This document shows positions 10,823 to 57,021 of a DNA stretch of 57,021 nucleotides, in pieces. The notes below the pieces were generated by a model. That model saw nothing but the letters and a program-made list of their open reading frames with translations. It searched no databases and had not been told where the DNA came from. Position numbers and translations under genes: made by a program. How positions within the stretch are numbered: position 1 is the first letter of the stretch; every line of letters begins with the position of its first letter. This DNA comes from Ensifer sp. Root278 (lineage in GTDB: Bacteria; Pseudomonadota; Alphaproteobacteria; Rhizobiales; Rhizobiaceae), in assembly GCF_001429285.1 (NCBI RefSeq), contig NZ_LMJJ01000017.1:1-57021 (forward strand). The letters run 5' to 3'.

Positions 10823-12364
<1,542 letters not shown>

Positions 12365-12492
12365 GTTCCTTGCCTCCCCCGTCGTTTCCGGCTGTCGCGG
12401 AAAAGTCCTCATCGCTGGCGGGTCACCAGCCCATTTAATCGCAGGTCGCATCCAAAAGGACGCAGACATCCGCAGCGGGACTTGCATATTTG

Positions 12493-12524
12493 AGCGGGAG
12501 CGCAGGTGATCCTGCGCTCCCGCT
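12493..12524 (-). promoter_or_regulatory. Intercistronic stem-loop, likely mRNA stabiliser
   Basis: A 14-bp perfect stem (12493-12506 with 12511-12524) closed by a 4-base loop lies 8 bp after the binding-protein stop. There is no U-tract on the minus strand, so it is more likely a 3' stabiliser or partial attenuator that raises binding-protein output over ATPase and permease. Confidence 0.65.
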
Positions 12525-12532
12525 GCAGGCGA

Positions 12533-27667: not shown

Positions 27668-27977
27668 GCAACTCTCCCATACCGGAACACTTGTGAATTA
27701 TTGATGCCAGCAGATCGGAACGAAAACCCGCGTCGCGCACTGACAAAAAAATGCACACATTCCGCAGTCGAATGTTGGATTGCGTCAGCTGGTGCATGCT
27801 GCAATGCGGAGCATTCATGGGCGAGTCAAGTCCTCACAGGTCATTAAGGGTGGTGGTGCGCTTGGCCGTTGACCCGGTGCCAGATAGTCGACGCGTGCGG
27901 TGTCTTGCGAAGGGCCACCGTTTCTCCTAAATGGCTCGATATTTAATGGCCAAAACTAATTTTAATTGGGGCGAAGA
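27668..27977. other. Divergent promoter region nudK / manBC
   Basis: This 310-bp intergenic stretch has no credible gene. It should hold the promoters for nudK (minus) and the phosphomannomutase-ManC gene (plus). The last 60 bases before 27978 are AT-rich. I see no clear operator or structured RNA. Confidence 0.45.
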
Positions 27978-30896
27978 ATGAAATTTGGAACTAGTGGTTT
28001 GCGCGGTCTGGTTGCGGACCTGATGGGGCGAACTACCTCGATTTACGCCGAAGCCTTTGCCAGACACCTTCTCGAAATCGGTGCCGCGAGACCTGGCGAC
28101 CGCGTTCTCGTAGGGCGTGATTTCCGTGCCTCAAGCCCTGAGATTGCTGCCTCTGCAATGGGCGCGTTAGAACGTACCGGCTTGAATCCCGTGGATTGCG
28201 GGGCGATACCAACACCGGCACTGGCCCTTTACGGTTTGAAGCTAGGATGTGCTTCGTTGATGGTAACCGGATCGCACATCCCTGATGATCGTAATGGAAT
28301 AAAATTCTATCGACCAGACGGCGAGATCGACAAGCGGGACGAAATGAGGATCAGTGCAATCGCTGCTGATATCGACCGCTATCCCGTAAACTTAGCGCCT
28401 GGCGTTGGACCGAACAATTCGGGAGAGGCGGAGACGTTGTTTCTTGCCCGGAACCAGCATCTCTTGCCCCCCTCAGCCTTGTCTGGCCTTAGAATCGGCG
28501 TCTACCAGCACTCGACTGTCGCACGCGACCTCCTGGTCGAGGTTCTGAAACACTATGGAGCCGAGGTTGTGGCACTTGGGCGCTCCACGCATTTCATACC
28601 TGTCGATACCGAAGCCGTTTCTGAGGAAACTGTTGCCTTGCTTAAGGAATGGGCCAAGGAGCACAGCCTCAACGCAATAGTTTCGGCGGACGGCGATGGT
28701 GATCGCCCTCTCGTGGCCACAGAAACCGGGGAGCCAGTGCGGGGCGATTTGCTTGGAATAGTCACCGCGGAATTCCTTGGTGCGAAGACCGTTGTAACTC
28801 CGGTAACTTCAAACTCAGGAATCGAGGAGGCTGGCGACTATCGCGTCATTCGGACCAAAGTTGGTTCGCCCTTTGTGATCGCTGGAATGCTCGAAGCTCT
28901 GCAAAACGGCAAGGCCGGAGTTATGGGTTTTGAGGCGAATGGGGGACTGCTGGTCGGCTCCAGGTTTGAGCTTGGTGGGAGAGTGATTGACGCGCTACCG
29001 ACGCGGGACAGTTTCCTGCCTATTCTCGCAATTCTCTTCCTTTCGGCCGCGAAGAACGTTTCGCTATCAAACATTACCAAGAGTTTTGGACTGCCATTTG
29101 CTGCTTCGGGGCGACTTGAGGGCTTCCCAGTTGAGGCGAGCGCAGCGCTGATGACGCAACTTCGTCTTTCGAGCGACAACCTTAGCGTTTTTCTCAGGTC
29201 GGTAGGTGATGTCAGCTGCACGAGTGATGTCGATGGGCTGAGGGTCACATTCCGCGATGATCGCGTCGTACACTTTCGTCCGTCTGGGAATGCGCCAGAG
29301 ATGCGATGCTACGTTGAAGCTAATTGCGAACATTCAGCGGCGGAACTCCTTAATCAAAGCCTAGCGCTCATCCGCGAGTGGGCTCGCGGAACGGAAACTA
29401 GTCACAGTCCGGAGAGTGCCGAACCAGTTCGTAGTGTAGACCCCGCGAAGGAGAGAAAAGAATTGAATTCGGCCGGCAAAATTATTCCAGTGATCATGGC
29501 GGGCGGCAAAGGTACTCGCCTTTGGCCGTTGTCGCGCGCAAGTGCGCCGAAGCAGTTCATTCAGTTCGTGGGCGATCGGACGCTATTTCAGGCAACTCTT
29601 GCGCGTGTAGCTGATCAGGAAATCTATGGGCCACCGCTTGTAATCACGAACGAGGATTTCCGGTTCCTCGCTGCTGAACAAGCCCGTGAACTTGGCATCA
29701 AACTTGGTGGGATTTTGCTGGAGCCGATAGCACGCAACACAGCTGCCGCTGTTGCTGTTGCGTCTGCCTTGGTTTCAGACCGTTACGGAGAAGATACCGT
29801 CCTCCAGGTCTTGGCCTCCGACCATGACATCGTTGCCGATCAAGGTTATTTCGATGCCATCCAGATAGCGCATCAAACTGCGCTTTCTGGCAAACTCGTC
29901 ACGTTCGGAATCAAGCCTACGGAGCCGGCGACGGGTTACGGCTATATCGAGATCGGCGAACGGCTTGCAACGAACGCTTGTAATGTGAAACGGTTCGTCG
30001 AGAAACCGGCGCGAGACGATGCGCAGAAGATGCTCGATCAAGGCGGCTTCGTTTGGAATTCCGGTATTTTCGTGTTTAAGGCAAGCCAGATGCTCAATGA
30101 GATGGCAAGGTTTGCGCCAGACGTCGAAAACGCTGCTCGCGCCGCACTTTCATTAGCCACAAGTGATCTTGACTTTATCCGCCTCGACGAAGAGGCGTTC
30201 GCAGCGAGCCCGGATATTTCGGTAGACTATGCCATTATGGAGAAAACCTCTAATGCTGCGGTAGTGGTTTCCACGATTGCGTGGAGCGATTTAGGTAGTT
30301 GGGATGCCGTCTGGAAGCTTGGCGATCGCGATGAGTCAGGTAACGTGGTTTTAGGCAATGCGACGGTAATGAACACAGCGAATTCTCTTGTTATGTCCAA
30401 CAACTGCCATTTGGCAGTACTTGGCCTTGAGGGTGTTGCGGTGATCGCAAGTGAGGACGCCGTATACGTTGGCCGATTAGATGACAGCCAGCACGTCGGA
30501 AAAATTGTCAAGCATCTCGCTTCGACGAAAGCGACGGCAATGTTAACGGAAACGCATCCGACGTCGTACCGCCCGTGGGGCGGGTATACTTCGGTGCTCA
30601 ACGGCGATCGCTTCCAGGTGAAACGCCTTTTCGTTAGTCCCGGTAAACAGCTTTCGCTGCAAAAACACCACCACCGTTCAGAGCATTGGGTGTGTGTAAA
30701 AGGAACAGCGGAAGTGACCGTAGGGGATATGGTGAAGATGGTATCGGAGAATGAGTCCGTTTACATTCCGCAGGGCGAAGTTCACCGCCTAACAAATCCG
30801 GGCAAGATAATGTTGGAGATGATTGAGGTGCAGACAGGTTCTTATCTCGGTGAGGATGACATTGTTCGCATCGCTGATGAGTTTGGTCGGGGATGA
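27978..30896 (+). CDS. Phosphomannomutase / ManC fusion (mannose-6-P isomerase, mannose-1-P guanylyltransferase)
   Basis: One 972-residue protein carries the enzymes for fructose-6-P to GDP-mannose. Residues 1-475: phosphohexomutase, with KFGTSGLRGLV, the phosphoserine loop VTGSHIPDD (S99), metal loop DGDGDRP, sugar loop GFEANGG and phosphate loop RPSGNAPEMR. A linker (about 476-500) follows. Residues 502-850: ManC nucleotidyltransferase with MAGGKGTRLWPLSRASAPKQ and FVEKPARDDAQK. Residues 860-972: type II phosphomannose isomerase cupin (YRPWGGY, SLQKHHHRSEHW, VYIPQGEVHRL). ATG 27978 is chosen over TTG 27966. Such enzymes are normally two proteins. The frame is open throughout with no stop or internal ribosome site. 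Confidence 0.9.
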   Translation: MKFGTSGLRGLVADLMGRTTSIYAEAFARHLLEIGAARPGDRVLVGRDFRASSPEIAASAMGALERTGLNPVDCGAIPTPALALYGLKLGCASLMVTGSHIPDDRNGIKFYRPDGEIDKRDEMRISAIAADIDRYPVNLAPGVGPNNSGEAETLFLARNQHLLPPSALSGLRIGVYQHSTVARDLLVEVLKHYGAEVVALGRSTHFIPVDTEAVSEETVALLKEWAKEHSLNAIVSADGDGDRPLVATETGEPVRGDLLGIVTAEFLGAKTVVTPVTSNSGIEEAGDYRVIRTKVGSPFVIAGMLEALQNGKAGVMGFEANGGLLVGSRFELGGRVIDALPTRDSFLPILAILFLSAAKNVSLSNITKSFGLPFAASGRLEGFPVEASAALMTQLRLSSDNLSVFLRSVGDVSCTSDVDGLRVTFRDDRVVHFRPSGNAPEMRCYVEANCEHSAAELLNQSLALIREWARGTETSHSPESAEPVRSVDPAKERKELNSAGKIIPVIMAGGKGTRLWPLSRASAPKQFIQFVGDRTLFQATLARVADQEIYGPPLVITNEDFRFLAAEQARELGIKLGGILLEPIARNTAAAVAVASALVSDRYGEDTVLQVLASDHDIVADQGYFDAIQIAHQTALSGKLVTFGIKPTEPATGYGYIEIGERLATNACNVKRFVEKPARDDAQKMLDQGGFVWNSGIFVFKASQMLNEMARFAPDVENAARAALSLATSDLDFIRLDEEAFAASPDISVDYAIMEKTSNAAVVVSTIAWSDLGSWDAVWKLGDRDESGNVVLGNATVMNTANSLVMSNNCHLAVLGLEGVAVIASEDAVYVGRLDDSQHVGKIVKHLASTKATAMLTETHPTSYRPWGGYTSVLNGDRFQVKRLFVSPGKQLSLQKHHHRSEHWVCVKGTAEVTVGDMVKMVSENESVYIPQGEVHRLTNPGKIMLEMIEVQTGSYLGEDDIVRIADEFGRG

Positions 30897-45331: not shown

Positions 45332-46585
45332 ATGAAATTTTCACTCCTGATCACCGGTCAAGTGCGGAATATGGCGGTTTTTGAGGGGGTCACCAGTTCT
45401 GCCAAAGCAGCAGCAGACTTTTTCGAGAAGATTGTCTATTGCGGCTGGGATGATCAGGTTGCCACGGCGAAGTCTCTTCTGGCTCATAACACGAGCATCG
45501 AGTGCGTGGGCGCCGGGTATCTGCTGCCGCTGGGCTCAGGCGCCGAGTCGTCTCTCGTTAGCTTCTTGGCTCAGCATCAACAGATTTCGTGTGGCCTCAG
45601 AGCGATCGGACCAGGGACGTTCGTTATCCGTATCCGAGCCGACAGTGCTCACATAACAGCCGAAAGGCTTCACTATCTTTGCCAGCTTATGGCCCTGAGT
45701 GGCAGCCGACACGATTTGCAAGGCAAGAGCGTTGTTCTGGGGGCGAGTGACCGGGCTCCGTTCTTTTTCGATGATCGGACGATGTTCTTGAGCCCTTTGC
45801 ACCAGTCTGCAATCTTGGGTATCGATCTCTCGTCGATTTACCGTGTCGATCCAGTCAATTTTTTCCCAGAGTTCCTGTTCTATTCGTCACTGGCGTTTGC
45901 GAACAAATCGCCGGGGCGGCTGACGGAATTCTGCTCATTTGACCACCGGTTCCGGCATTACGAGAACTGCGTGCAATCCGTCATGCACGGAATATCTGTC
46001 TTTGGTGAAAACGGGTACGGCGAGGGCTGTGCCGAGTATCTGGAGTTTGCGAAGGACCACTTCCTCTTCTTAGCGGACTTAGTTGCTGAATTCTCATCAG
46101 ATATCGGCCACCCCCCTGAAGGCATGATGTCGAGCCTGTGTAACAGCTTTCATATCTACAATATGAACGTGTTGTTGTCGTCGTTTGAGAGGAACAGCCA
46201 AGAATATCGGAGCGAATTCGACACGGTCATGTCTGGCGTTTCAGAAAACACTTCGAGTGTTTTCAGAGTTACGGACAAAGAGATCGCCGTCGAAGCTAAG
46301 TCTTACCTGAACACCCTTCGTAGAGCTGTGGCGGCCGGGCAGGATTCGACACAGCCGATGCCTGAGCGACTTTCCTCTGCGTCAATTGCACCAATCATTC
46401 GGTTCTACCAGGCGAAGTCATTAAAGGGCGTTGGTGGCTATGAAGCCGGCAAGGCGCTGATCAGCAAGAATCTTGATCTTGGCTACTCGACACCGCGGCA
46501 AGATGATTTGCTCCAAGAAATCGAACAAGCGCTCAATTCAAAACTTAAGCCCGAATCGCAGGTTGCATCGGGAAGGGGAGAGTAA
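45332..46585 (+). CDS. WavE-like polysaccharide biosynthesis protein
   Basis: This 417-residue protein begins KFSLLITGQVRNMAVF and continues with an arginine/aspartate motif (VIRIRADSAH, about residue 101) and LGASDRAPFFFDDRTMFLSP, matching the pattern of WavE lipopolysaccharide proteins, presumed glycosyltransferases of a GT-A-like fold. No signal peptide or membrane segment is seen. It is the first gene of a tightly packed set; its TAA shares a base with the next ATG (TAATG). The acceptor and donor are unknown. Confidence 0.65.
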   Translation: MKFSLLITGQVRNMAVFEGVTSSAKAAADFFEKIVYCGWDDQVATAKSLLAHNTSIECVGAGYLLPLGSGAESSLVSFLAQHQQISCGLRAIGPGTFVIRIRADSAHITAERLHYLCQLMALSGSRHDLQGKSVVLGASDRAPFFFDDRTMFLSPLHQSAILGIDLSSIYRVDPVNFFPEFLFYSSLAFANKSPGRLTEFCSFDHRFRHYENCVQSVMHGISVFGENGYGEGCAEYLEFAKDHFLFLADLVAEFSSDIGHPPEGMMSSLCNSFHIYNMNVLLSSFERNSQEYRSEFDTVMSGVSENTSSVFRVTDKEIAVEAKSYLNTLRRAVAAGQDSTQPMPERLSSASIAPIIRFYQAKSLKGVGGYEAGKALISKNLDLGYSTPRQDDLLQEIEQALNSKLKPESQVASGRGE

Positions 46586-47334
46586 TGTTGAAAATCGTAG
46601 TCCCCATGGCGGGGAGAGGCAGCCGTTTTACGGATGCTGGCTACCAGGATCCGAAGCCTCTAATTAAGGTCGGCGAACAACGCATGATCGAGGTTGTCAT
46701 CAACAACCTTCGTCCACGATGCGACCATACGTTCGTTTTCATTTGTCAGCAGGACCAGGTCGAGCGGTATGGCTTGCGAGAAAAGCTGGCAGCCTGGGCA
46801 CCGGGTTCAAAGATCGTTTCTCTCGACGGGATTACGGAAGGCGCAGCTTGCACCGTACTCGCTGCGGCGGAGCACATCGATGGCGGTGCATTGATGATCG
46901 CGAACAGCGATCAGTACGTCGACATCGACATCAATGACTATCTGGCTGCATGCAGCGGCGGCCTCGACGGCCTCATAATGACGATGAAGGCGACGGATCC
47001 GAAGTGGTCTTTCGTTGACTACAATGGGGACGGCCACGTCACGAGGGTGGTCGAAAAGGAGGCCATCTCAGACGAGGCTACCGTCGGCATCTACAATTTC
47101 TCCAACGGACTAGATTTCGTCGCAGCCGCCAAGCGCATGATTGCCGACAACGAGCGCGTAAATGGCGAGTTCTACGTTGCTCCGGTCTACAATCAGATGA
47201 TCAAGCGGGGCGCCAAAATCGGGTTCTACAATGTAGGCTCCGTCGACGATGGTATGCATGGACTTGGGACGCCCGCGGACCTTGACGCCTTTCTTGCTTC
47301 AGAAACGATGCTGAAGCTGAAGGCTGCCCAATGA
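46585..47334 (+). CDS. Sugar-phosphate nucleotidyltransferase family protein (249 aa)
   Basis: This is a complete NTP-transferase fold. It shows VVPMAGRGSRFTDAGYQDPK as the nucleotide/phosphate loop, KPLIKVG next, GAACTVLAAAEHIDGGALMI, NSDQYVD as metal site, and EKEAISDEATVGIYNFSNG. It is shorter than RmlA or GalU and resembles small nucleotidyltransferases found in capsule loci that activate a phosphorylated sugar, polyol or amino-alcohol. The nucleotide and substrate cannot be read. It is coupled to its neighbours on both sides (1-bp and 4-bp overlaps). Confidence 0.78.
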   Translation: MLKIVVPMAGRGSRFTDAGYQDPKPLIKVGEQRMIEVVINNLRPRCDHTFVFICQQDQVERYGLREKLAAWAPGSKIVSLDGITEGAACTVLAAAEHIDGGALMIANSDQYVDIDINDYLAACSGGLDGLIMTMKATDPKWSFVDYNGDGHVTRVVEKEAISDEATVGIYNFSNGLDFVAAAKRMIADNERVNGEFYVAPVYNQMIKRGAKIGFYNVGSVDDGMHGLGTPADLDAFLASETMLKLKAAQ

Positions 47335-47948
47335 AGATCATCAGCCACCGAGGTTTCTGGCAAACGCCAGAAGAAAAGAACGCAATATCTGCGTTTGATC
47401 GCACGGTCGCCGATGGGTTTGGTACCGAGACGGATGTCAGAGACTTCCTTGGGGATCTCGTGATTTCTCACGACCCCGCCGTTGGAAACCCGATCCCTTG
47501 GAGTGCTGTCGTCGATAGGTTCGATGGCACAGGACTCGAGTTGGCGGTCAACGTAAAAGCCGACGGGCTCTCGTCAGCCCTTGCCGCGAGCTTTGCCGGC
47601 AGAAACGTGCACTGGTTTGCGTTCGACATGTCTGGCCCTGAGATGTGGCGCTACAAGAACGCTGGATTGCCCTACTACACCCGTCACAGCGACATCGAGC
47701 CGGACCCGATTCTTTACGGGGATGCCGCCGGCGTTTGGCTGGATGCATTCGAAGACACATGGTTCGATGCGGAGGTAATCACCTCGCATCTGGAGAGCGG
47801 AAAATCCGTCTGCGTGGTCTCTTCAGAACTTCATGGCCGCGACCCGCTGTTACTGTGGCAAATGCTCAAGCCTGTTCGCGATCGCAATGGCCTAACCATT
47901 TGCACCGACAAACCATTGGATGTCAGAAGGTTCCTGTTCGATGATTAA
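47331..47948 (+). CDS. Glycerophosphodiester phosphodiesterase-like protein (205 aa)
   Basis: This short TIM-barrel protein has the GDPD signature set: SHRGFWQTPEEKNAISAFDR (HRG and the PEN-like block), GTETDVRDF (E-x-D) and LVISHDPAVGNP (HD). The catalytic residues are thus kept, but at 205 residues it is shorter than usual (about 240 or more). It has no signal peptide, so it acts in the cytoplasm. In a cluster with two nucleotidyltransferases and a phosphatase it may process a phosphodiester intermediate instead of membrane lipid; this is inferred. It overlaps the next gene by 8 bp. Confidence 0.72.
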   Translation: MKIISHRGFWQTPEEKNAISAFDRTVADGFGTETDVRDFLGDLVISHDPAVGNPIPWSAVVDRFDGTGLELAVNVKADGLSSALAASFAGRNVHWFAFDMSGPEMWRYKNAGLPYYTRHSDIEPDPILYGDAAGVWLDAFEDTWFDAEVITSHLESGKSVCVVSSELHGRDPLLLWQMLKPVRDRNGLTICTDKPLDVRRFLFDD

Positions 47949-48570
47949 ATCCGTCGTATTTGATATGGATGGCGTGTTGATTGATGCCAAAGAATGGCAC
48001 TACGACGCGCTGAACAGAGCACTTGCGCTTTTCGGAAGCGGGATCAGCCGCGCGGACCACCTGACCACTTTCGACGGACTTCCGACGCGAAGGAAGCTAG
48101 AGTTGCTGAGCGTTACCGATGGCCTCCCCAAGCGGCTGCACGGCTTCATCAATGATCTGAAACAGAGCTACACGATGGAAATTGTTAGTGTGAGGTGCAA
48201 GCCGACATTCAATCATCAATATGCCTTATCTGAGCTCAAGGCGCGAGGAATGAAACTCGCGGTGGCCTCAAACTCCATTCGCAAGTCGGTTGAAGCCATG
48301 ATGGAGTTCTCACATTTGCGCGAGCACTTGGATTTGCTGATCTCCAACCAGGATGTTTCCAAGGCCAAGCCTGACCCGGAAATGTATCTTAAGGCGATGG
48401 ACAAGTTGGGTACTAATCCAGATGAGACGCTCATTCTGGAGGACAACGAGCACGGCATTATGGCCGCCCGGAGCTCCGGTGCCCACGTCCTGGTTGTTAA
48501 GGACGTGTCCGATGTTAACTTCCCCAACATCGACCGGAAGATCAAAGAGATTGGTGGGTATTCGCAATGA
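47941..48570 (+). CDS. HAD-superfamily phosphatase/phosphomutase-like
   Basis: This 209-residue HAD enzyme of the beta-phosphoglucomutase subgroup has motif I FDMDGVLIDAKEWHY, motif II AVASNSIRK, motif III SKAKPDPEMYL and motif IV ILEDNEHGIMAA, with an alpha-helical cap in between. ATG 47941 is used since family similarity starts there; it lies inside the end of the GDPD-like gene (8-bp overlap). It probably dephosphorylates or isomerises a sugar or polyol phosphate used by the adjacent nucleotidyltransferases. Confidence 0.85.
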   Translation: MIKSVVFDMDGVLIDAKEWHYDALNRALALFGSGISRADHLTTFDGLPTRRKLELLSVTDGLPKRLHGFINDLKQSYTMEIVSVRCKPTFNHQYALSELKARGMKLAVASNSIRKSVEAMMEFSHLREHLDLLISNQDVSKAKPDPEMYLKAMDKLGTNPDETLILEDNEHGIMAARSSGAHVLVVKDVSDVNFPNIDRKIKEIGGYSQ

Positions 48571-49298
48571 ACATCATTATTCTTGCGGCCGGTGAGCGCG
48601 CGACCGAAGACAGTGAACGCATCTATCCGATCTGGTTGGGTGAAGTTGACGGCGAGCTCGTAGTCGAGAGAAAAGTCCGAGCCTTATCGAAGTTGCAAGA
48701 TCCGCAATTCATTTTTGCATTCCGGGCAGCAGACATAGACGCATACTACCTGCGCGATATCGTAGGGCAGATGGCCGGTTCGCCGGTGGTGGTCTCCGTC
48801 AAAAACGAAACTGCCGGCGCGGCTTGCACAGCTTTGTTGTGCTGCGACGCGGTTGATATGGATGACGAACTCATCATTGCTAGCGCAACCGACCAGTTGG
48901 ATGTCGACTACCTGCCACTGGTAGAAGAATTCAAGACGAGGGGAGCCGACGCCGGAGTTCTCACATTTCCGTCCCTACACCCGCGCTACTCATACGTCCG
49001 AGCCGGCGCCGACGGATGGGTGACTGAATGTGCCGAAAAGCGCCCCATCAGTCGATCGGCGAACGCTGGTTTTTACTGGTTTGCCAAGGCATCCGATTTC
49101 TTCGAATCTCTAAAACAGATGATCTTCAAGGATGCGCACGTCCAGGGTAAGTTCTACATATGCCCAGCCTTGAATGAGATGATCCTTAAGCAACGGAAAG
49201 TGCTGTCCATTCCGCTGCGCCCCGAGCAGTATCATCCTTTGAAATCCGCCGATCAGCTAAACGTCTACGGGCTGGCTACGGAGAAAGAAGTTCAATGA
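48567..49298 (+). CDS. Divergent nucleotidyltransferase-like protein (243 aa)
   Basis: The protein has the overall order of an NTP transferase: IIILAAGERATEDSERIYPI at the start, ETAGAACTALLCCDAVDMDD, ATDQLDVDYLP in the metal-site position, and SANAGFYWFAKASDFFESL. The phosphate-binding loop is abnormal: the GxGxR-x(n)-PK pattern of the upstream paralogue (46585) is absent. It could be a non-catalytic partner of that protein or bind a different substrate. It is coupled to both neighbours by ATGA overlaps. Confidence 0.68.
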   Translation: MNIIILAAGERATEDSERIYPIWLGEVDGELVVERKVRALSKLQDPQFIFAFRAADIDAYYLRDIVGQMAGSPVVVSVKNETAGAACTALLCCDAVDMDDELIIASATDQLDVDYLPLVEEFKTRGADAGVLTFPSLHPRYSYVRAGADGWVTECAEKRPISRSANAGFYWFAKASDFFESLKQMIFKDAHVQGKFYICPALNEMILKQRKVLSIPLRPEQYHPLKSADQLNVYGLATEKEVQ

Positions 49299-49630
49299 TC
49301 AAAATCGACAAACTTGAAGACATGGTCCGTGGATGGTTCGTCGGTGATTTCGAGCCTTCTGCCCTAAGGACGAAGGAATTCGAGGTCGGTATTCGCCGTT
49401 ACAACGCCGGAGACGCCGAGGCGGCGCATGTCCATAGACAGACGCTGGAAATAACGGCGATCATGTCTGGGGAGGCCAGAATGGCAGGAAGAACGCTGGT
49501 CCCCGGCGACATCATTACGATCGAGCCTGGTGACGCAACAGCGTTCGAAGCTCTGACGGATTGCGTGACAGTCGTTGTGAAAACGCCGTCGCTCGTAAAC
49601 GACAAGTTCCCCGTGGATCACATTGACTGA
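49295..49630 (+). CDS. Small cupin protein (111 aa)
   Basis: This is a single cupin barrel. The first metal motif is AAHVHRQTLEI (H-x-H, about residues 47-49) and the second is around PGDIITIEPGDATAFEAL. It starts in an ATGA overlap with the preceding gene and ends the six-gene run just before a strong terminator. In sugar-nucleotide clusters such cupins are epimerases, isomerases or ligand sensors; which one applies here is not clear. Confidence 0.75.
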   Translation: MIKIDKLEDMVRGWFVGDFEPSALRTKEFEVGIRRYNAGDAEAAHVHRQTLEITAIMSGEARMAGRTLVPGDIITIEPGDATAFEALTDCVTVVVKTPSLVNDKFPVDHID

Positions 49631-49662
49631 TCACAAAACCGAAATGCCTGTACCTAGACCAG

Positions 49663-49686
49663 CCCCGCCTTATTCGGCGGGGTTTT
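49663..49686. terminator. Bidirectional rho-independent terminator
   Basis: CCCCGCC (49663-49669) pairs with GGCGGGG (49676-49682), followed by TTTT. It lies between the convergent cupin and methyltransferase genes and can serve both. Confidence 0.85.
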
Positions 49687-50895: not shown

Positions 50896-51723
50896 ATGCA
50901 GCGTCACGCAAATAATATGACACGCCAGCCGCCGCTTTCCGGCAAAGTCCCGATCCGTGTCGCTCTGAAGAGGCAATGGCATGTGATGCATGCGGTAATT
51001 CTCCGTGACATTCGAAGCCGATATTTCAACCATGGCCTAGGTTTTTTGGTAGCGCCGCTGTTTCCGGTTGCGCACGTCGGCATCCTACTCGCCATCTATT
51101 CCTTCACTGGGCGTTCAGCAACTTTCGGCGACGACATGATGCTCTTCTTCGCGACTGGCCTAATGCCCGTGTTGACCTTGACATATGTCTCCAGGTTTAT
51201 GTCCTCGTCGATCGTCGCAAACAAGAGTATGCTTTCGTTTCCAGCCGTCCACCTAATGGACATAGTGCTTGCGAGGTCTCTTCTAGAGTTTGTGGCCATT
51301 GTAATATCAGTTATTATCCTTGTAATAATCCTATTAAGTCTTGGGACAAACCCTTTTCCTTACAGGCCTGAGCAAGCGCTCATGTGTATGGCGGTAACTG
51401 CAATGCTGGCGGTGGGCGTTGGGATTATCATCAGCGTGATTTCGGCAATGGTGCCGACCATGTCAATGATCTATGCGCTGTTCACGGTCCTCATTTACTT
51501 GTCGTCTGGAGGCCCGATTTATTTGGACACCTATCCAGAAGAAGTAGTTTACATGCTATCTTTCAATCCAGCATTTCAATGCGTATCTTGGATGCGGCAG
51601 GCATATTATCAAGGATACGCGGCGCCATTTCTAGACAAAACATACCTGTTCTTGTGGAGTACCAGTACGTTATCAGCCGGACTATTGATGGAGCGCACGC
51701 TCAGGAAGTATGTACTACAATAA
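50896..51723 (+). CDS. ABC-2 polysaccharide export permease (Wzm/KpsM family)
   Basis: This inner-membrane subunit of a polysaccharide ABC exporter has 275 residues. A cytoplasmic N-terminus with the amphipathic ILRDIRSRYFNHGLGFL segment (typical of KpsM/Wzm) is followed by six hydrophobic segments, ending near the motif FNPAFQCVSWMRQAYYQG. GAGAGAAG precedes ATG 50896. The ATPase partner (Wzt/KpsT), normally adjacent, is not in the window; the following DNA is insertion-sequence debris starting within tens of bases of the stop. Confidence 0.88.
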   Translation: MQRHANNMTRQPPLSGKVPIRVALKRQWHVMHAVILRDIRSRYFNHGLGFLVAPLFPVAHVGILLAIYSFTGRSATFGDDMMLFFATGLMPVLTLTYVSRFMSSSIVANKSMLSFPAVHLMDIVLARSLLEFVAIVISVIILVIILLSLGTNPFPYRPEQALMCMAVTAMLAVGVGIIISVISAMVPTMSMIYALFTVLIYLSSGGPIYLDTYPEEVVYMLSFNPAFQCVSWMRQAYYQGYAAPFLDKTYLFLWSTSTLSAGLLMERTLRKYVLQ

Positions 51724-51984
51724 ATGCACGCAAGGGCGCTCTAAAGGTGGCACCCATCTGAATCGTGCCATCATGGACGGCCCCCCAAACGTACGTTCCG
51801 CTTTCTAGGCGATTAGTCGTGAGCGCGACGAACGTCCTGCAGGTATCCGATGTTGACAGTCGGGCTTTTTGGTAAGGGGCAAGGGGACCACGTCTGATAG
51901 AGCGGTGAGAGGTCGGATATCGGTGGCGGACACGATGAGCAGGCTCGGCCTTGCAGAAGAAACGGATACGTTCCTGCAATCTGG
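51724..51984. other. Mosaic of mobile-element remnants
   Basis: This 261-bp stretch between the permease and the istA fragment has no intact gene. At 51819-51833 it holds GTGAGCGCGACGAAC, identical to the first 15 bases of the IS66-family terminal repeat at 53564, so an end of a related element was once here. The rest could not be assigned. Confidence 0.55.
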
Positions 51985-52667
51985 TGAAAGCCATAGTGAC
52001 GAGCCAGATCGACGAGGGCACGGTTGTAGACGATACCTTCAGTCTGACCTTCACCGATGACCGCCGTCTTCATTCGATCATAGAGGATCTCCCGCGGTGC
52101 GCCGCCAATCGCTTCGAAAGCGGCCGCATGGCATCGAAGGACTGTCGGCAGGTTCTGGTGCATGACAAAGCGCGCCCAGATGAGCCGGCTGTATCCGAGC
52201 ACCATGGAGAACAGCCAGACGATCCTCGGCGTTGTTGGTTCATCCGTGAAGGTGACATGAAAGCGGGCGAAATCGACCTGCGCCTGATCGCCGGGCGACG
52301 TCTCGAAACGAACCTCATACCCTTGTGTCGTCGCCGGCCGCACATCGCGCAGGAAATCCGTCACAGCCGTATAGCCACCGACATAGCCGCGTTCCTTGAT
52401 CTCACGAAACAGTCGACTGCCCGTGAGACCGGGATAGGTCTTTACCCGATCACGAAGATAGGCGGCAAACGGGTCGATTACCGCCGCTCGTGGCTTTCGT
52501 GGGCCGTAGGACGGAGCCTCCAGACCGCGCTCGATATATTTGCGTACCGTCTTGCGGTCGATGCCAGTCTGCCTGGCGATCGCCGACACCGACAAACCTT
52601 GTCGATGCAAATCAAGGATCATGATCGTCTCCCTCAGTTTGATCACCGAAATCCCCCTTCCGACCAT
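51813..52667 (-). pseudogene. istA: Truncated IS21-family transposase IstA
   Basis: The N-terminal about 228 residues match IstA: a helix-turn-helix (LSVSAIARQTGIDRKTVRKY), then FETSPGDQAQVDFARF with the first catalytic Asp, PREILYDRMKT with the second Asp region, and VDLARHYGFH. After this (near 51984) similarity stops and the frame runs into unrelated DNA to a stop at 51813. The last third of the catalytic core, including the final Glu, and the helper gene istB are missing. It cannot be active. Confidence 0.82.
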
Positions 52668-52694
52668 CGGAAGGAGTATCGATGACGACGCGCC

Positions 52695-52728
52695 GCCGGT
52701 CTTCCGGGGCGCGCCCCGAAAGACCGGC
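52695..52728. repeat. 16-bp inverted repeat upstream of istA
   Basis: Positions 52695-52710 and 52713-52728 are complementary except at one pair, separated by two bases (arm GCCGGTCTTCCGGGGC). It lies just outside the istA start and may be a terminator protecting the element from read-in, or an operator. Confidence 0.55.
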
Positions 52729-52833
52729 TACAGCGCGCAAACTGGGGAAGATTCAAACGGCACTAGTGGGTGACCTGCCCCTGAGAATTCCCTCCAGAAT
52801 GGATTAGAGTCCGGCCTATTAAAGGACGGACGA

Positions 52834-53100
52834 ATGAAGAAGCAGCGATTTACGGAAGAGCAGATTATTGCGGTGCTGAAGGAGCAGGAGGCTGGCGCGA
52901 AGGTGGCCGACCTCTGCCGCAAGCACGGAATTTCAGAAGCAACGTTTTATAACTGGAAAGCCAAGTACGGCGGCATGGAGGTCTCCGAGGCGAAGCGGTT
53001 GAAGGCGCTTGAGGACGAGAATATCAGGCTAAAGAAACTGCTGGCCGAGCAGATGCTGGATGCAGCCGCACTCCGCGAGCTTCTTGCAAAAAAATGGTAG
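52834..53100 (+). CDS. IS3-family transposase OrfA
   Basis: This 88-residue helix-turn-helix protein starts KKQRFTEEQIIAVLKEQEAG, with CRKHGISEATFYNWKAKYGG as recognition helix, then a leucine-zipper-like coiled coil (LKALEDENIRLKKLLAEQML). It is complete and typical of the IS407 group. A run of seven A (53088-53094) just before its stop is the expected -1 slippage site for making the OrfAB fusion; orfB is in the -1 frame. Alone it can bind ends but not transpose. Confidence 0.92.
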   Translation: MKKQRFTEEQIIAVLKEQEAGAKVADLCRKHGISEATFYNWKAKYGGMEVSEAKRLKALEDENIRLKKLLAEQMLDAAALRELLAKKW

Positions 53101-53644
53101 GGCCTGCCGCCAAGCGTGAAGCCGTCACGCATCTGAAGGCCGTCATGGGTCTTTCGGAGCGTCGGGCCTGTCAGATCATATCCGCCGACCGCAAGACGAT
53201 CCGTTATCGGTCCCGTTGACCGCCGGAGGTCGATCTGCGAGCGAAGCTGCGCGACCTGGCCAACCAGCGGCGGCGTTTCGGCTACCGTCGCCTGTTCATC
53301 CTGCTTCGGCGAGATGGAGAGCGGTCGGGCGTCAATCGCATCTACCGTCTTTATCGCGAGGAAGGGCTTTCCGTTCGCAAGCGAACAGCCCGGCGGCGTG
53401 CTGTCGGCATGCGTGCACCGATCCTGGTCGAAGCGAAGGCCAATGCCCGCTGGTCGCTGGATTTCGTCCACGACCAGTTCGCCTGCGGCAGGCGATTCCG
53501 GGTCCTCATGTCGTTGATGACGTGACGCGCGAATGCCTGGCAGCGATCCCGGACACGTCTATCGTGAGCGCGACGAACAGCCCACCTTTTCTTTGCTGAT
53601 TGAGACCGCGAGATAAGCTCCTTCATCGATAGGAGCGGAACAGG

Positions 53645-54115
53645 ATGGTTGGAGATCGCGCTGATGCCATGCTTGAAGTCATGGATGAAGGCATGGATGA
53701 AGCCAGGCATGATGGAGTCTACCGGCGGATCGAGGTGATCACCGGTCGCCGCCAGCGGCGGAATTGGACCGACGAAGAGAAGGCGCGGATCCTTGCCGAA
53801 AGCGCAGAACCCGACGTGAACATCTCGGCCGTCGCCCGGCGCTGGGGCGTCAATCGCGGCCTGCTGAATGTCTGGCGCCGCGAAGCCGGGCTGACCTCTC
53901 GACGATCTGCGCAAGCCGGCGCACAGCAGGCCATGTTCGTGCCGGTGACCGTGGTTGGAGAACGAACGCCTCCCCAGAGCGCGTCGTCGGATATCGCTTC
54001 CGTTGCTTCCGGTCGCATTGAGATCGAGATTGCTGGCGCGCGCATGACCGTGTTCGGCTCGGTGGCGCCCGAGTTGGCGCAGGCGATCGTGGCGGCGTTG
54101 CGAGGGCGCCGGTGA
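53645..54115 (+). CDS. tnpA: IS66 accessory transposition protein TnpA
   Basis: This 156-residue protein has a helix-turn-helix (EEKARILAESAEPDVNISAV, then ARRWGVNRGLLNVWRREAG) and a C-terminal IEIEIAGARMTVFGS segment typical of IS66 TnpA (IS66 Orf1). The N-terminal 25 residues, with MLEVMDEGMDEARHD, may be extra. It overlaps tnpB by four bases. Required with TnpB for transposition in the family. Confidence 0.9.
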   Translation: MVGDRADAMLEVMDEGMDEARHDGVYRRIEVITGRRQRRNWTDEEKARILAESAEPDVNISAVARRWGVNRGLLNVWRREAGLTSRRSAQAGAQQAMFVPVTVVGERTPPQSASSDIASVASGRIEIEIAGARMTVFGSVAPELAQAIVAALRGRR

Positions 54116-54468
54116 TCGGACTTTCGCCGAATGGCGTGAAGATCATGGTGGCGACGCAGCCGGTCGACTTCCGGCGCGGGATGAATGGGCTTGTGGCCTT
54201 GGTGGCGTCAGCGCTTGCGGCCGATCCCTATTGTGGCGATGTGTTCGTGTTCCGCGCCAAGCGTCTCGATCGCCTTCGCTGCATTTATTGGGACGGGTCA
54301 GGCATGATCCTGGCGACGAAATGGCTGGAGGCGGGCAAGTTCGTTTGGCCACCGATCCGCGATGGCGCGATGCAAATGAGTAGCCAAGAGTTCTCGCTTT
54401 TGCTGGCCGGCATTGACTGGACGCGGGTCAAACGAAACGCGGTGAGGAGGCCTTCAAAAGCGGGCTGA
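54112..54468 (+). CDS. tnpB: IS66 accessory transposition protein TnpB
   Basis: This 118-residue TnpB (IS66 Orf2) shows the invariant VKIMVATQPVDFRRGMNGL block, FVFRAKRLDRLRCIYWDGSG and FVWPP. Length and motifs are standard. It starts in an ATGA overlap with tnpA and is followed 49 bp later by tnpC. Confidence 0.94.
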   Translation: MIGLSPNGVKIMVATQPVDFRRGMNGLVALVASALAADPYCGDVFVFRAKRLDRLRCIYWDGSGMILATKWLEAGKFVWPPIRDGAMQMSSQEFSLLLAGIDWTRVKRNAVRRPSKAG

Positions 54469-54516
54469 TCCTATTGGATTTGTTTGCAGATTCAGGCTCA
54501 CGTGGTAGGGTCTGTC

Positions 54517-56091
54517 ATGCCGCTTCGACCCACCCCCTTGCCTCAGGATGCTGCGCAATTGACCCGGATCATTCTCTCGCTCGACGAGGAGAATGCCGAT
54601 CTCAAAGCGCGCGTTGCCTTCCTGGAGCAACAGCTCTTTGGGGCGAAGTCGGAGAAAATGACGATGATCGACCCGACGCAGGCGACGCTCGATCTTGGCG
54701 ATCTCAGCGACATTCCCGAAGCTGCCAATGACGATGTTGCGCCCGTCGCCGAGGGGACACCGCAGGCTCGACAAGCGCCGTCCCGCAATATCGGCCGTTT
54801 ACCCAAGCACCTTCCCCGGTATGAAGAGCTCATCGAGCCAGAGAGCAAGGTTTGCCCGTGCTGCTCGTTCGAGCTTCATTGCATCGGCAAGGATGTCAGC
54901 GAAGCGCTCGACATCGTGCCGGCGGTCGTCCGGGTTAAACGGACGATCCGGCCGCGCTACGCATGCCGAGCCTGCGAAAGCGTCATTGTGCAGGCGCCCG
55001 CGCCGCCGCGCGTAATGGATGGCGGCATGGTGACTATGGCCTTTGCCGCCCATGTCGCCGTCTCAAAGTTTGCCTGGCACCTGCCGCTGCATCGCCAGGC
55101 GCAGATGCTTGCCTCCTGCGGCGTGATCATCGATCGCGGCACGCTCGGCGCCTGGGTGACGCGGGTCGCCTGGTGGCTTGAACTTCTCTATGATGCGCTG
55201 CTTGCCTTCATCCGCTCGCAGCCGAGGGTATTTTGTGATGAGACGCCGCTGCCGCGGCTTGATCCAGGGCGCAAACGCACCAAGCTTTGCCAACTTTGGG
55301 CGCAAGCGATCGACGATCGCCCATGGAATGGTCCGGCGCCGCCGGCGGTTGCCTATATCTTTGCCGAAAGCCGCGGCGCTCGCGAAGTCGAGGGGCAATT
55401 GTCGTCGTTTACCGGCGTGCTTCAAGTTGATGGGTATCAAGCCTATAAAACCATGGCCAAGCGCCGGGGGAAGAGTAATGTCGCGCCCATGCGGCTGGCC
55501 TTCTGCCTTGCCCATGCTCGGCGCAAGTTCGTCGATGTCGTCAAGCTCACCGGCTCCTCGGAGGCTCTGTCGATCCTTGCCAGGATTGCCGAGATCTATC
55601 GGATCGAAGCGAGACTGCGCGGCGAAAGTGCCGATACCCGCCTCGTAGTGAGGCGTCGCGATGCAGCTCCTATCATGAGAGAACTGAAGGTCCATCTCAC
55701 CGAACTGCGTGACGAGGTGTCGGCGAAATCGGCGCTTGGCAAGGCCGTCACCTACACGCTCAACCACTGGAGCGGACTGGCAGCCTTCCTGGAGGATGGC
55801 CGGATCGAAGTGGACTCCAATGTGGTCGAGCGTTCGATGAAATCCGTGGCCCTGACGAGGAAGAATTCGTTGTTCGTGGGCAACGAGCGCGGTGGCAAGA
55901 CCTTCGCGGTGCTCGCATCGCTCGTCAACACCTGTAAACTCAATGGTGTGGACCCCCATGTCTGGTTTGCCGATGTGCTGGGACGCATCATCGCGGGCAA
56001 AGTAAAAGCCAGCGAGATGGAAAGTCTCCTGCCGTGGAACTGGAAGGCTGAGCGCGAGGCGATGACAGAGCAGGAGCGACGGGCGGCATGA
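54517..56091 (+). CDS. tnpC: IS66 transposase TnpC
   Basis: This DDE transposase has 524 residues from ATG 54517. Layout: N-terminal coiled coil (SLDEENADLKARVAFLEQQL), a zinc-binding region with CPCC and CRAC, then the RNase-H-like core with FCDETPLPRL (Asp), LQVDGYQAYKTM (Asp) and IEVDSNVVERSMKSVAL (Glu), and the C-terminal LLPWNWKAERE. All catalytic residues are present. A TTG 33 bases upstream is an alternative start. Its stop overlaps the next gene by ATGA. Confidence 0.94.
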   Translation: MPLRPTPLPQDAAQLTRIILSLDEENADLKARVAFLEQQLFGAKSEKMTMIDPTQATLDLGDLSDIPEAANDDVAPVAEGTPQARQAPSRNIGRLPKHLPRYEELIEPESKVCPCCSFELHCIGKDVSEALDIVPAVVRVKRTIRPRYACRACESVIVQAPAPPRVMDGGMVTMAFAAHVAVSKFAWHLPLHRQAQMLASCGVIIDRGTLGAWVTRVAWWLELLYDALLAFIRSQPRVFCDETPLPRLDPGRKRTKLCQLWAQAIDDRPWNGPAPPAVAYIFAESRGAREVEGQLSSFTGVLQVDGYQAYKTMAKRRGKSNVAPMRLAFCLAHARRKFVDVVKLTGSSEALSILARIAEIYRIEARLRGESADTRLVVRRRDAAPIMRELKVHLTELRDEVSAKSALGKAVTYTLNHWSGLAAFLEDGRIEVDSNVVERSMKSVALTRKNSLFVGNERGGKTFAVLASLVNTCKLNGVDPHVWFADVLGRIIAGKVKASEMESLLPWNWKAEREAMTEQERRAA

Positions 56092-56654
56092 CGCACAACA
56101 GCCAGGGGATGACGACCGCACGACCGAAGCTTGATGATGAGGCGTTCGAGGCGTTTATTAGGGGACGCCGTCCCGCATCGCCAATTTGGTCAATGAGCGG
56201 TCTCGATGGTTATCTTACGGCTCTCATCATCGGCCCGAAGTTCATCGACCCACGCAAATGGATCCCGGAACTGACAGGTCCGGATGCCCTGAACCTGCCG
56301 ATGGAGACAACAGAACATCGGGCCGTGCAGACGATCGTTGCGGAGTATAACCGCATCTCGGCGAGCCTTTCCGAAAGACCGAAAGACCACCGGCCCAGGT
56401 TCACCAGGATAGATGATCAGACCTTTGATCAGTTCGATTGGGACCTCTGCTTTTTGTTGGGAACAGGATACGCGCCGAGGCTTTGGCAGCCGGTTCTTCG
56501 AGGTCATGCCGGGACTGGCGATATCATCGCGCCCATCCGCAAGCTCGGCGAGACAAAACGGAAAGCAACCCGCCAGGATGCTGCTGACGTCGCCGAAGCA
56601 CTCGTCAATATCCGAACCTACTTTATGCCGAAGCGGGCAAAGCAGAAGTTCTGA
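56088..56654 (+). CDS. IS66 passenger: UPF0149/YecA-like protein
   Basis: This 188-residue protein resembles the YecA/UPF0149 family: SMSGLDGYLTALIIGPKFIDP, then a helical body and a DWDLCFLLGTGYAP segment. It lacks the C-terminal metal-binding SEC-C motif seen in many members. It overlaps tnpC by four bases and lies inside the right terminal repeat, so it belongs to the element. Such a fourth gene occurs in a subgroup of IS66 elements; its function is unknown. Confidence 0.75.
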   Translation: MTHNSQGMTTARPKLDDEAFEAFIRGRRPASPIWSMSGLDGYLTALIIGPKFIDPRKWIPELTGPDALNLPMETTEHRAVQTIVAEYNRISASLSERPKDHRPRFTRIDDQTFDQFDWDLCFLLGTGYAPRLWQPVLRGHAGTGDIIAPIRKLGETKRKATRQDAADVAEALVNIRTYFMPKRAKQKF

Positions 56655-56914
56655 AAGAAAGTGCTATTGCGATCCCATCAACGCCGAAAACAGTGGGCTG
56701 TTCGTCGCGCTCACCGTCTATCTCTGGTCGACGTGTCGCCCGAGAACTGACGACGCTGATCGAACGGCGAGGCAAACCCGGAATGATCGTCTCCGACAAT
56801 GGCACCGAACTCACCTCGAATGCCATCTTTGCCTGGTCGAAGGATCACAAGATCGAGTGGCACTACATCGCGCCGGGAAAGCCGATGCAAAACGGCTATG
56901 TCGAGAGTTTCAAC

Positions 56915-57021
56915 GTAAGCGACAAGCCGGGGCCGTTCAGGCGGCGTAGTTCCACGGCATGAGCGCGTCAATATCGCTGCTGGGCCATCCATTTGCGAGG
57001 CGCTCAAGTGTCTGGGTAAGG
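56915..57021 (-). mobile_element. Second IS66-family element, end only (runs off window)
   Basis: IS3 orfB similarity stops exactly at 56914 and the new sequence starts GTAAGCGACAAGCCGGGG, an IS66-type terminus. Just inside it is the C-terminus of an IS66 transposase on the minus strand. The element continues beyond 57021. Its terminal sequence differs from that of the element at 53564, so it is a different family member. Confidence 0.8.
56937..57021 (-). CDS. IS66 transposase TnpC, C-terminal fragment (partial)
   Basis: The last 27 codons on the minus strand read LTQTLERLANGWPSSDIDAL followed by MPWNYAA and stop. This matches the IS66 TnpC C-terminal pattern (compare LLPWNWKAE in the other copy). 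The rest lies outside the window. Confidence 0.75.
   Translation of the reverse strand, partial: LTQTLERLANGWPSSDIDALMPWNYAA

Follow-up and report, generated by a model that had tools for sequence, protein, structure and literature searches.

A recurring gene cassette with paired nucleotidyltransferase paralogues, one of them probably inactive, in Ensifer sp. Root278

Six overlapping genes lie in a row on the forward strand of contig NZ_LMJJ01000017.1 of Ensifer sp. Root278, at positions 45332-49630 of the 57,021 nucleotides analysed (the window), and raise the question of what their products would make together. An earlier note, drawn up from the DNA letters, had read the module as synthesizing and transferring an activated, phosphate-containing substituent of a polysaccharide. 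All six open reading frames (ORFs) were present at the coordinates claimed, and successive genes overlapped by 1, 4, 8, 4 and 4 bp, within the claimed range of 1-8 bp. The first encodes a near-orphan, putative glycosyl- or phosphotransferase of 417 aa that may belong distantly to the WavE superfamily (gene 1, 45332-46585). It is followed by a presumed active nucleotidyltransferase of 249 aa (NTase1, 46585-47334), a protein of 205 aa resembling glycerophosphodiester phosphodiesterases (GDPD-like, 47331-47948), a HAD-superfamily phosphatase or phosphomutase of 209 aa (47941-48570), a paralogue of NTase1 of 243 aa that is presumed to be a non-catalytic partner (NTase2, 48567-49298) and a small cupin of 111 aa (49295-49630). 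The HAD start was taken as the Met at 47941, where the conserved family start MIK..FDMDG begins, and not as the start at 47920 given in the ORF list. The module is real and widespread. Judged from its sequences, it probably encodes a coupled activation pathway with one working nucleotidyltransferase and a distant WavE-type transferase; we lean towards a self-contained pathway that would activate a single building block (X), either a sugar phosphate or a polyol phosphate.

Recurrence and distribution of the cassette

When the genome collection was scanned with an alignment of the GDPD-like protein, 199 stretches fitted a pattern. A relative was encoded in 159 of them, from which the 80 best were retained. 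Cassette membership in these 80 loci was assigned from phmmer relatives (E-value of 1e-4 or better) within the fetched stretch. Relatives of NTase1, the GDPD-like protein, the HAD protein, NTase2 and the cupin were all present in 68 of the 80 loci, and in 58 they stood in the order seen in the window, while a further eight loci carried NTase1 at the end. Twelve loci were incomplete, several of them being short stretches that end at contig ends. Because five genes recur as a unit in so many loci, the grouping of the six is more than chance, and the earlier suggestion that the proteins belong together was borne out. Protein searches returned 3436 relatives of the GDPD-like protein among 3910 scored candidates and 910 of NTase2 among 2127.

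The record titles of the loci name Methylobacterium, Pseudomonas, Paraburkholderia, Acinetobacter, Kosakonia, Vibrio, Bacteroidetes, Verrucomicrobiaceae, Lacunisphaera, Marinimicrobia, Cyanobacteria, Fimbriiglobus and Butyrivibrio; Pseudomonas is over-represented, and many of the loci are metagenome bins, so that single taxonomic placements may be wrong. The distribution of the cassette is sporadic. In a sample of 398 genomes of the phylum, the GDPD-like profile scored above 200 bits in two genomes (Root278 itself and G346) and 73-79 bits in five. A search of the own family at an E-value of 1e-15 gave matches in 8 of 247 genomes and in none of the three same-genus genomes listed. Plasmid records contained a GDPD-like match in 26 of 72,556 cases, every one below 60 percent identity, and phage records contained none. 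On plasmids of P. alcaligenes and P. aeruginosa, the cassette has WavE, ABC genes, a GMC oxidoreductase gene and hypothetical proteins as its company. The gene tables for these stretches, which are incomplete, list no further sugar-nucleotide gene. Profiles of the cassette-associated ABC proteins matched in 42 of the 80 loci for the ATPase, a count that may include unrelated ABC proteins, and in 31 for the permease.

Some loci show additional or variant gene content. In many loci, the gene after the cupin (e.g., L028:12309-14084) encodes a member of a 591-aa family with no significant Pfam match; the profile of this family matched 27 of the 80. In G483, a small genome of the same family that consists of one contig (1,157,064 bases), the five-gene cassette (L122:6844-13283) is placed between a DUF7796 gene and genes for an oxidoreductase and an aminotransferase; the upstream DUF7796 gene had no detectable relation to gene 1. 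An E. coli plasmid (NZ_CP145712.1, L094:6022-14984) carries a variant cluster with a fused double nucleotidyltransferase, GtrA, a GDPD-like protein, a kinase, a HAD protein and a class II aldolase. Of 5426 E. coli genomes, 2 have a cluster of this type, in each case on a plasmid.

The nucleotidyltransferase pair and the accompanying enzymes

NTase1 passed the Pfam cut-offs of both PF12804 (36.5 bits, cut-off 27) and PF00483 (33.6 bits, cut-off 21.2), and its profile matched the PDB entry 4evw with an E-value of 8.2e-31. NTase2 had no Pfam family at an E-value of 0.1. Its homology to nucleotidyltransferases is evident from a single-sequence match to 4evw (E-value of 1.1e-6), from a profile match to the same structure, obtained with an alignment that held NTase1 as one of its 20 rows, and from 31 percent identity to NTase1 across residues 21-212. 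Motifs were compared in 76 NTase1 and 73 NTase2 sequences, selected from the 80 loci and the window according to their phmmer scores, with lower-scoring and short sequences left out, and the catalytic roles of the residues are those we assume from the RmlA/GlmU family. NTase1 retains the GxG[ST]R loop in 74 of 76 sequences and R14, PKP and D109 in all 76. In NTase2 these motifs are lost: the loop occurs in none of the 73 locus sequences and in none of the 120 listed database relatives, the 73 sequences have Lys in the K24 column 12 times and Asp in the D109 column 14 times, and the second motif region contains PK in none of the 120. E157 and K158 are kept in 68 and 66 of the 73 sequences, respectively. 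In five loci (L019, L022, L123, L124 and L125), NTase2 and NTase1 form a single polypeptide with the degenerate half at the N-terminus, and each of these loci carries an additional short nucleotidyltransferase-like gene.

NTase2 is thus probably a catalytically dead partner of NTase1. Since the loop is missing from every NTase2 sequence examined, the pair of nucleotidyltransferases listed by the earlier note probably does not amount to two functioning enzymes. That both enzymes are active and supply two different nucleotide donors appears highly unlikely to us. The retention of E157, K158 and other positions means that NTase2 is under constraint, six of the 120 database relatives have G...R within the region of the loop, and the fused protein of L094 has a GxGxR loop in both halves, although it belongs to a more distant variant; the missing loop and the few sequences with Lys at K24 or Asp at D109 speak against two active enzymes. 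A pairing of one catalytic with one degenerate paralogue has a counterpart in GMPPA and GMPPB, the regulatory and catalytic nucleotidyltransferases of the eukaryotic GDP-mannose enzyme. The fold is the same (the NTase1 profile search showed chains of 7d72), but the cassette enzymes are small bacterial proteins. In the public annotation of L092 and L215, NTase1 and NTase2 are both called 'glycosyltransferase family 2 protein', a label that looks like a misannotation.

The other labels given by the earlier note fared unequally. The GDPD-like protein matched no Pfam family at an E-value of 0.1, but its profile found the GDPD structures 1o1z and 3no3 among PDB sequences (E-values of about 1.5e-5), essentially in the region of the N-terminal motifs. 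H6, R7, E33, D35, H47 and K76 are present in 81 of 81 family members, which therefore have the canonical His/Arg, the E-x-D metal pair and the second His, as well as the Lys, of glycerophosphodiester phosphodiesterases. They differ from these enzymes in being about 205 aa long, in lacking a Pfam match and in carrying Asn74 in all 81 sequences, where 1o1z has a Glu (in a weak second alignment stretch of 2.6 bits). Residue roles are again our assumption, and we take this Glu to be the third metal ligand. Because Asn74 replaces the canonical Glu, the reaction of the GDPD-like enzyme cannot be assumed. The HAD label was confirmed by PF13419 (HAD_2), with 119.6 bits on the longer frame from 47920, a score above the cut-off; D8, D10, S110, K143, E167 and D168 are found in 79 of 79 sequences, so that the DxD nucleophile is present, and the best PDB profile match was 3e58, a putative beta-phosphoglucomutase. 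For the cupin, PF07883 (Cupin_2) remained below its cut-off (19.5 bits against 27.2), while the HxH and Glu signature (H45, H47 and E52) is conserved in 71 of 71 sequences.

The presence of a GDPD-like enzyme makes a phosphodiester possible. X might be a polyol, glycerol-like or amino-alcohol phosphate that the transferase joins through a phosphodiester, as in teichoic-acid-like capsules, and the GDPD-like enzyme would make, trim or recycle the diester. We regard this as possible but on the doubtful side. It is favoured by the conserved HR, E-x-D and H residues and by the ABC-exporter and WavE-superfamily genes near the cassette in many loci. There is also a precedent in Campylobacter jejuni HS:1, where such a capsule exists and uses CDP-glycerol (PMC11924219). 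Against it stand the invariant Asn opposite the Glu of 1o1z and the absence of any TagF-, LicD- or CDP-glycerol-type family recognised by Pfam or NCBIfam among the six proteins. The phosphorus-containing product expected by the earlier note was unsupported by the analysis. A phosphonate pathway was considered and dropped, as no family of the PepM type, which we presume such a pathway to have, was reported for the six genes.

The WavE connection

Gene 1 itself had no Pfam family at an E-value of 0.1 and scored -2.4 bits against the profile of the WavE family (f4; PF07507, described in Pfam only as lipopolysaccharide synthesis), so that a plain WavE protein was rejected. When a gene 1 profile made of two sequences was compared by hhalign, the probability was 95.7 for an intermediate family, f29, and 23 for f4 directly, while f29 and f4 were linked at 97.8. 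The label 'WavE-like' given by the earlier note is therefore plausible as a superfamily statement, through f29, but not as membership of the Pfam family. The single other relative of gene 1 found with 8000 candidates scored (P0242) is encoded by Methylobacterium sp. C33D on a contig of 15645 bases, and the GDPD-like (P0034) and NTase2 (P0168) relatives of that strain lie on a contig of equal size. No relatives of gene 1 were found on plasmids. Among the 80 cassette loci, 43 contain a WavE-superfamily gene, counted where a score of at least 25 bits was reached against either f4 or f29; in the phylum sample of 398 genomes, PF07507 matched in 4.

The reverse relation was seen in WavE regions of 29 genomes, a single region from each, that were collected by three PF07507 searches with about 8 kb on each side where the contig allowed. 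WavE accompanies nucleotidyltransferases of the NTase1 type in these regions: in 28 of the 29, no more than 3.2 kb separates such a gene from WavE, and in 19 the distance is under 500 bp or the two overlap. Both genes are fragments in L118, L120 (G346) itself carries cassette genes, and L174 has no NTase1-type gene. NTase1 is a sister of this 4evw-type enzyme (hhalign 99.9). Beside the nucleotidyltransferase, 27 of the 29 regions encode a 126-aa HAD protein and 26 a 528-aa protein. The HAD protein tested scored 228.5 bits against TIGR01689 (EcbF-BcbF, cut-off 162), and the C-terminal part of the 528-aa protein gave weak APH and fructosamine-kinase matches (E-values of 0.0027 and 0.015), both under their cut-offs. 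The 528-aa protein was also considered as a relative of NTase2 and rejected, the support being faint and confined to an N-terminal stretch (hhalign values of 11 for NTase2, 1.6 for NTase1 and 0.6 for the 4evw family, with controls at 0.1-0.8). No nucleotidyltransferase-WavE fusion was found in the five ORF sets searched.

Across 197 genomes of the order into which all 29 WavE genomes are grouped, TIGR01689 matched at an E-value of 1e-15 in 12 of 12 genomes with WavE and in 9 of 185 without (Fisher p of 5.8e-14, uncorrected for relatedness), with the matches in one WavE genome (G290) and one of the nine others (G823) lying under the curated cut-off. In each of these nine others, the HAD protein, the 528-aa protein and the nucleotidyltransferase are encoded together; the HAD protein of L213 is short, and L206 has a weak WavE-like match of 26 bits. 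The trio (L117, L158-L182 and L205-L213) often adjoins WavE and otherwise other genes. From these sequences we read it as an activation cassette, with WavE as its frequent transferase. Like the cassette, the trio groups an enzyme of the NTase1 family and a HAD phosphatase with WavE; unlike it, the trio, which was seen in one gammaproteobacterial-type order, has an APH-like region and a short HAD protein of the TIGR01689 type, whereas Pfam and NCBIfam reported no kinase family among the six window genes. GDPD-like proteins or cupins of the cassette kind were not found beside the trio, except in G346, which has cassette genes.

The link between EcbF-BcbF and WavE, together with fructose-containing polysaccharides known to us, makes a ketose another candidate for X. 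Fructose occurs in the Vibrio cholerae core, in the Haemophilus influenzae type e capsule and in the Pasteurella multocida type B capsule. NTase1 might accordingly form a nucleoside diphosphate (NDP)-ketose, for instance of fructofuranose, from which WavE-superfamily proteins would transfer the ketose glycosidically. We consider this rather improbable. A sister nucleotidyltransferase of the 4evw type does adjoin WavE together with an EcbF-BcbF protein and a weakly APH/fructosamine-kinase-like one, and the EcbF-BcbF matches divide sharply between genomes with and without WavE. However, the window cassette lacks a kinase, its HAD type differs, and fructose is tied to these genes through polysaccharide structures. 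Enzymes reported to transfer fructose are HS1.08 of C. jejuni and KfoE of E. coli. HS1.08 (849 aa) is reported to be needed if the HS:1 capsule is to carry its fructose branch (PMC7901785), and a genetic study suggested that it is needed for fructose activation and transfer (cited in PMC11924219). The portion of PMC11666461 at hand does not mention fructose.

A proposed pathway and its setting

The reading that we favour, a self-contained route to one activated building block, draws on the recurrence of the cassette, the split of motifs between the two nucleotidyltransferases, the NTase2-NTase1 fusions, the company of WavE and ABC genes and the plasmid mini-loci. X-phosphate would come from the HAD protein, acting as either a phosphatase or a mutase, together with the GDPD-like enzyme and the cupin. 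NTase1, in a complex with the dead NTase2, would convert it to NDP-X, the WavE-superfamily protein (gene 1 in the window) may move X or X-phosphate onto a polysaccharide, and the polysaccharide bearing X would leave by an ABC-type exporter. The earlier proposal of an activated polysaccharide precursor fits the ABC-exporter and WavE-superfamily genes and the plasmid mini-locus. No named pathway with this gene set was found in the open-licence literature, in line with the same proposal, though these searches were weak and half of them returned mostly noise. In its make-up the set is reminiscent of routes that trim or shift a phosphate, add a nucleotide and pass the product to a transferase. A related logic is known from MupP-AmgK-MurU, which consists of a HAD phosphatase, an anomeric kinase and a nucleotidyltransferase. 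There, too, trimming of a phosphate leads through an anomeric phosphate to an NDP-sugar. NTase1 matched MurU weakly (E-value of 2.7e-4, 20.9 bits, cut-off 250), and a kinase was not recognised in the window cassette.

Several points weigh against the activation pathway. We know of no activity for any of the six proteins, and the pseudo-enzyme status of NTase2 is predicted from sequence alone. The relationship of gene 1 to WavE is distant at best, and PF07507 found no match in the Root278 genome; control genomes were also without a match, while other genomes were matched. A WavE-superfamily gene was not detected in 37 of the 80 loci, some of which are truncated by contig ends, and the 29 WavE regions all come from one order, so they do not represent independent events. 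Inter-protein distances correlate pairwise at 0.70-0.88 among the five cassette proteins, but those of the ABC, WavE and f7 families correlate equally (0.69-0.97). As these flanking families correlate as well, the measure does not single out the cassette, and co-inheritance by distance correlation was dropped as not discriminating. Finally, inspection by eye placed a few copies (L057 and L087) at a distance from any recognisable polysaccharide genes. The cassette might instead make a soluble metabolite or signal, its placement in polysaccharide loci being secondary. The L057 copy stands, again by eye, beside genes resembling those of ATP-synthase subunits, and a copy in R. rosettiformans lies near plasmid recombination and replication genes; the association with WavE and ABC exporters and the plasmid mini-loci count against a soluble product, which we judge to be distinctly unlikely.

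The locus around the module in Root278 encodes enzymes resembling a dTDP-rhamnose set, several glycosyltransferases, a KpsM-like ABC permease, a GDP-mannose dehydratase-like enzyme and a fused phosphomannomutase/GDP-mannose enzyme. The last of these is a single chain of 976 aa (27966-30896, forward strand) that combines one nucleotidyltransferase and one mannose-6-phosphate isomerase domain with phosphomannomutase domains, apparently a one-protein route to GDP-mannose. A terminator-like hairpin of 9 pairs, 7 of them G-C, with a T-rich tail (49661-49684, forward strand) starts 31 bases past the cupin stop, although such sites were no commoner across the whole scan than in shuffles (6 against a mean of 7.0). 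The next gene encodes a methyltransferase in the opposite orientation. Farther on, the KpsM-like ABC-2 permease (50896-51723, forward strand; PF01061, 39.1 bits) is a possible exporter subunit adjoining the operon. It scored 69.8 bits against the NCBIfam KpsM model, under the cut-off of 300, and matched the cassette-associated permease family g6 with an E-value of 4.5e-12. The cassette-associated ATPase profile detected no stand-alone partner in the window and matched only a two-domain ABC protein (10826-12532). Transposase-like ORFs, of the IS21, IS3 and IS66 types by eye, start straight after the permease (51813-56949). The G+C content of the operon is 53.8 percent, compared with 56.7 percent for the whole window, a mild difference that is in keeping with a separate origin but no proof of one.

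In two public plasmid records, the remaining cassette proteins are named phosphodiesterase, HAD family phosphatase or cupin. With such generic annotation, including that of the nucleotidyltransferases as glycosyltransferase family 2, a recurring pathway stays hidden. The cassette might, tentatively, represent a new pathway that is present in several phyla and on plasmids and makes a novel nucleotide-activated donor, perhaps an NDP-ketose or a phosphodiester donor, with an obligate pair of active and dead nucleotidyltransferases, a repurposed GDPD barrel and the WavE superfamily as the matching transferase. The conserved gene set, the loss of the NTase2 loop and the link between nucleotidyltransferases and WavE allow concrete predictions of what WavE does and of the surface-polysaccharide residue that would be made via the cassette.

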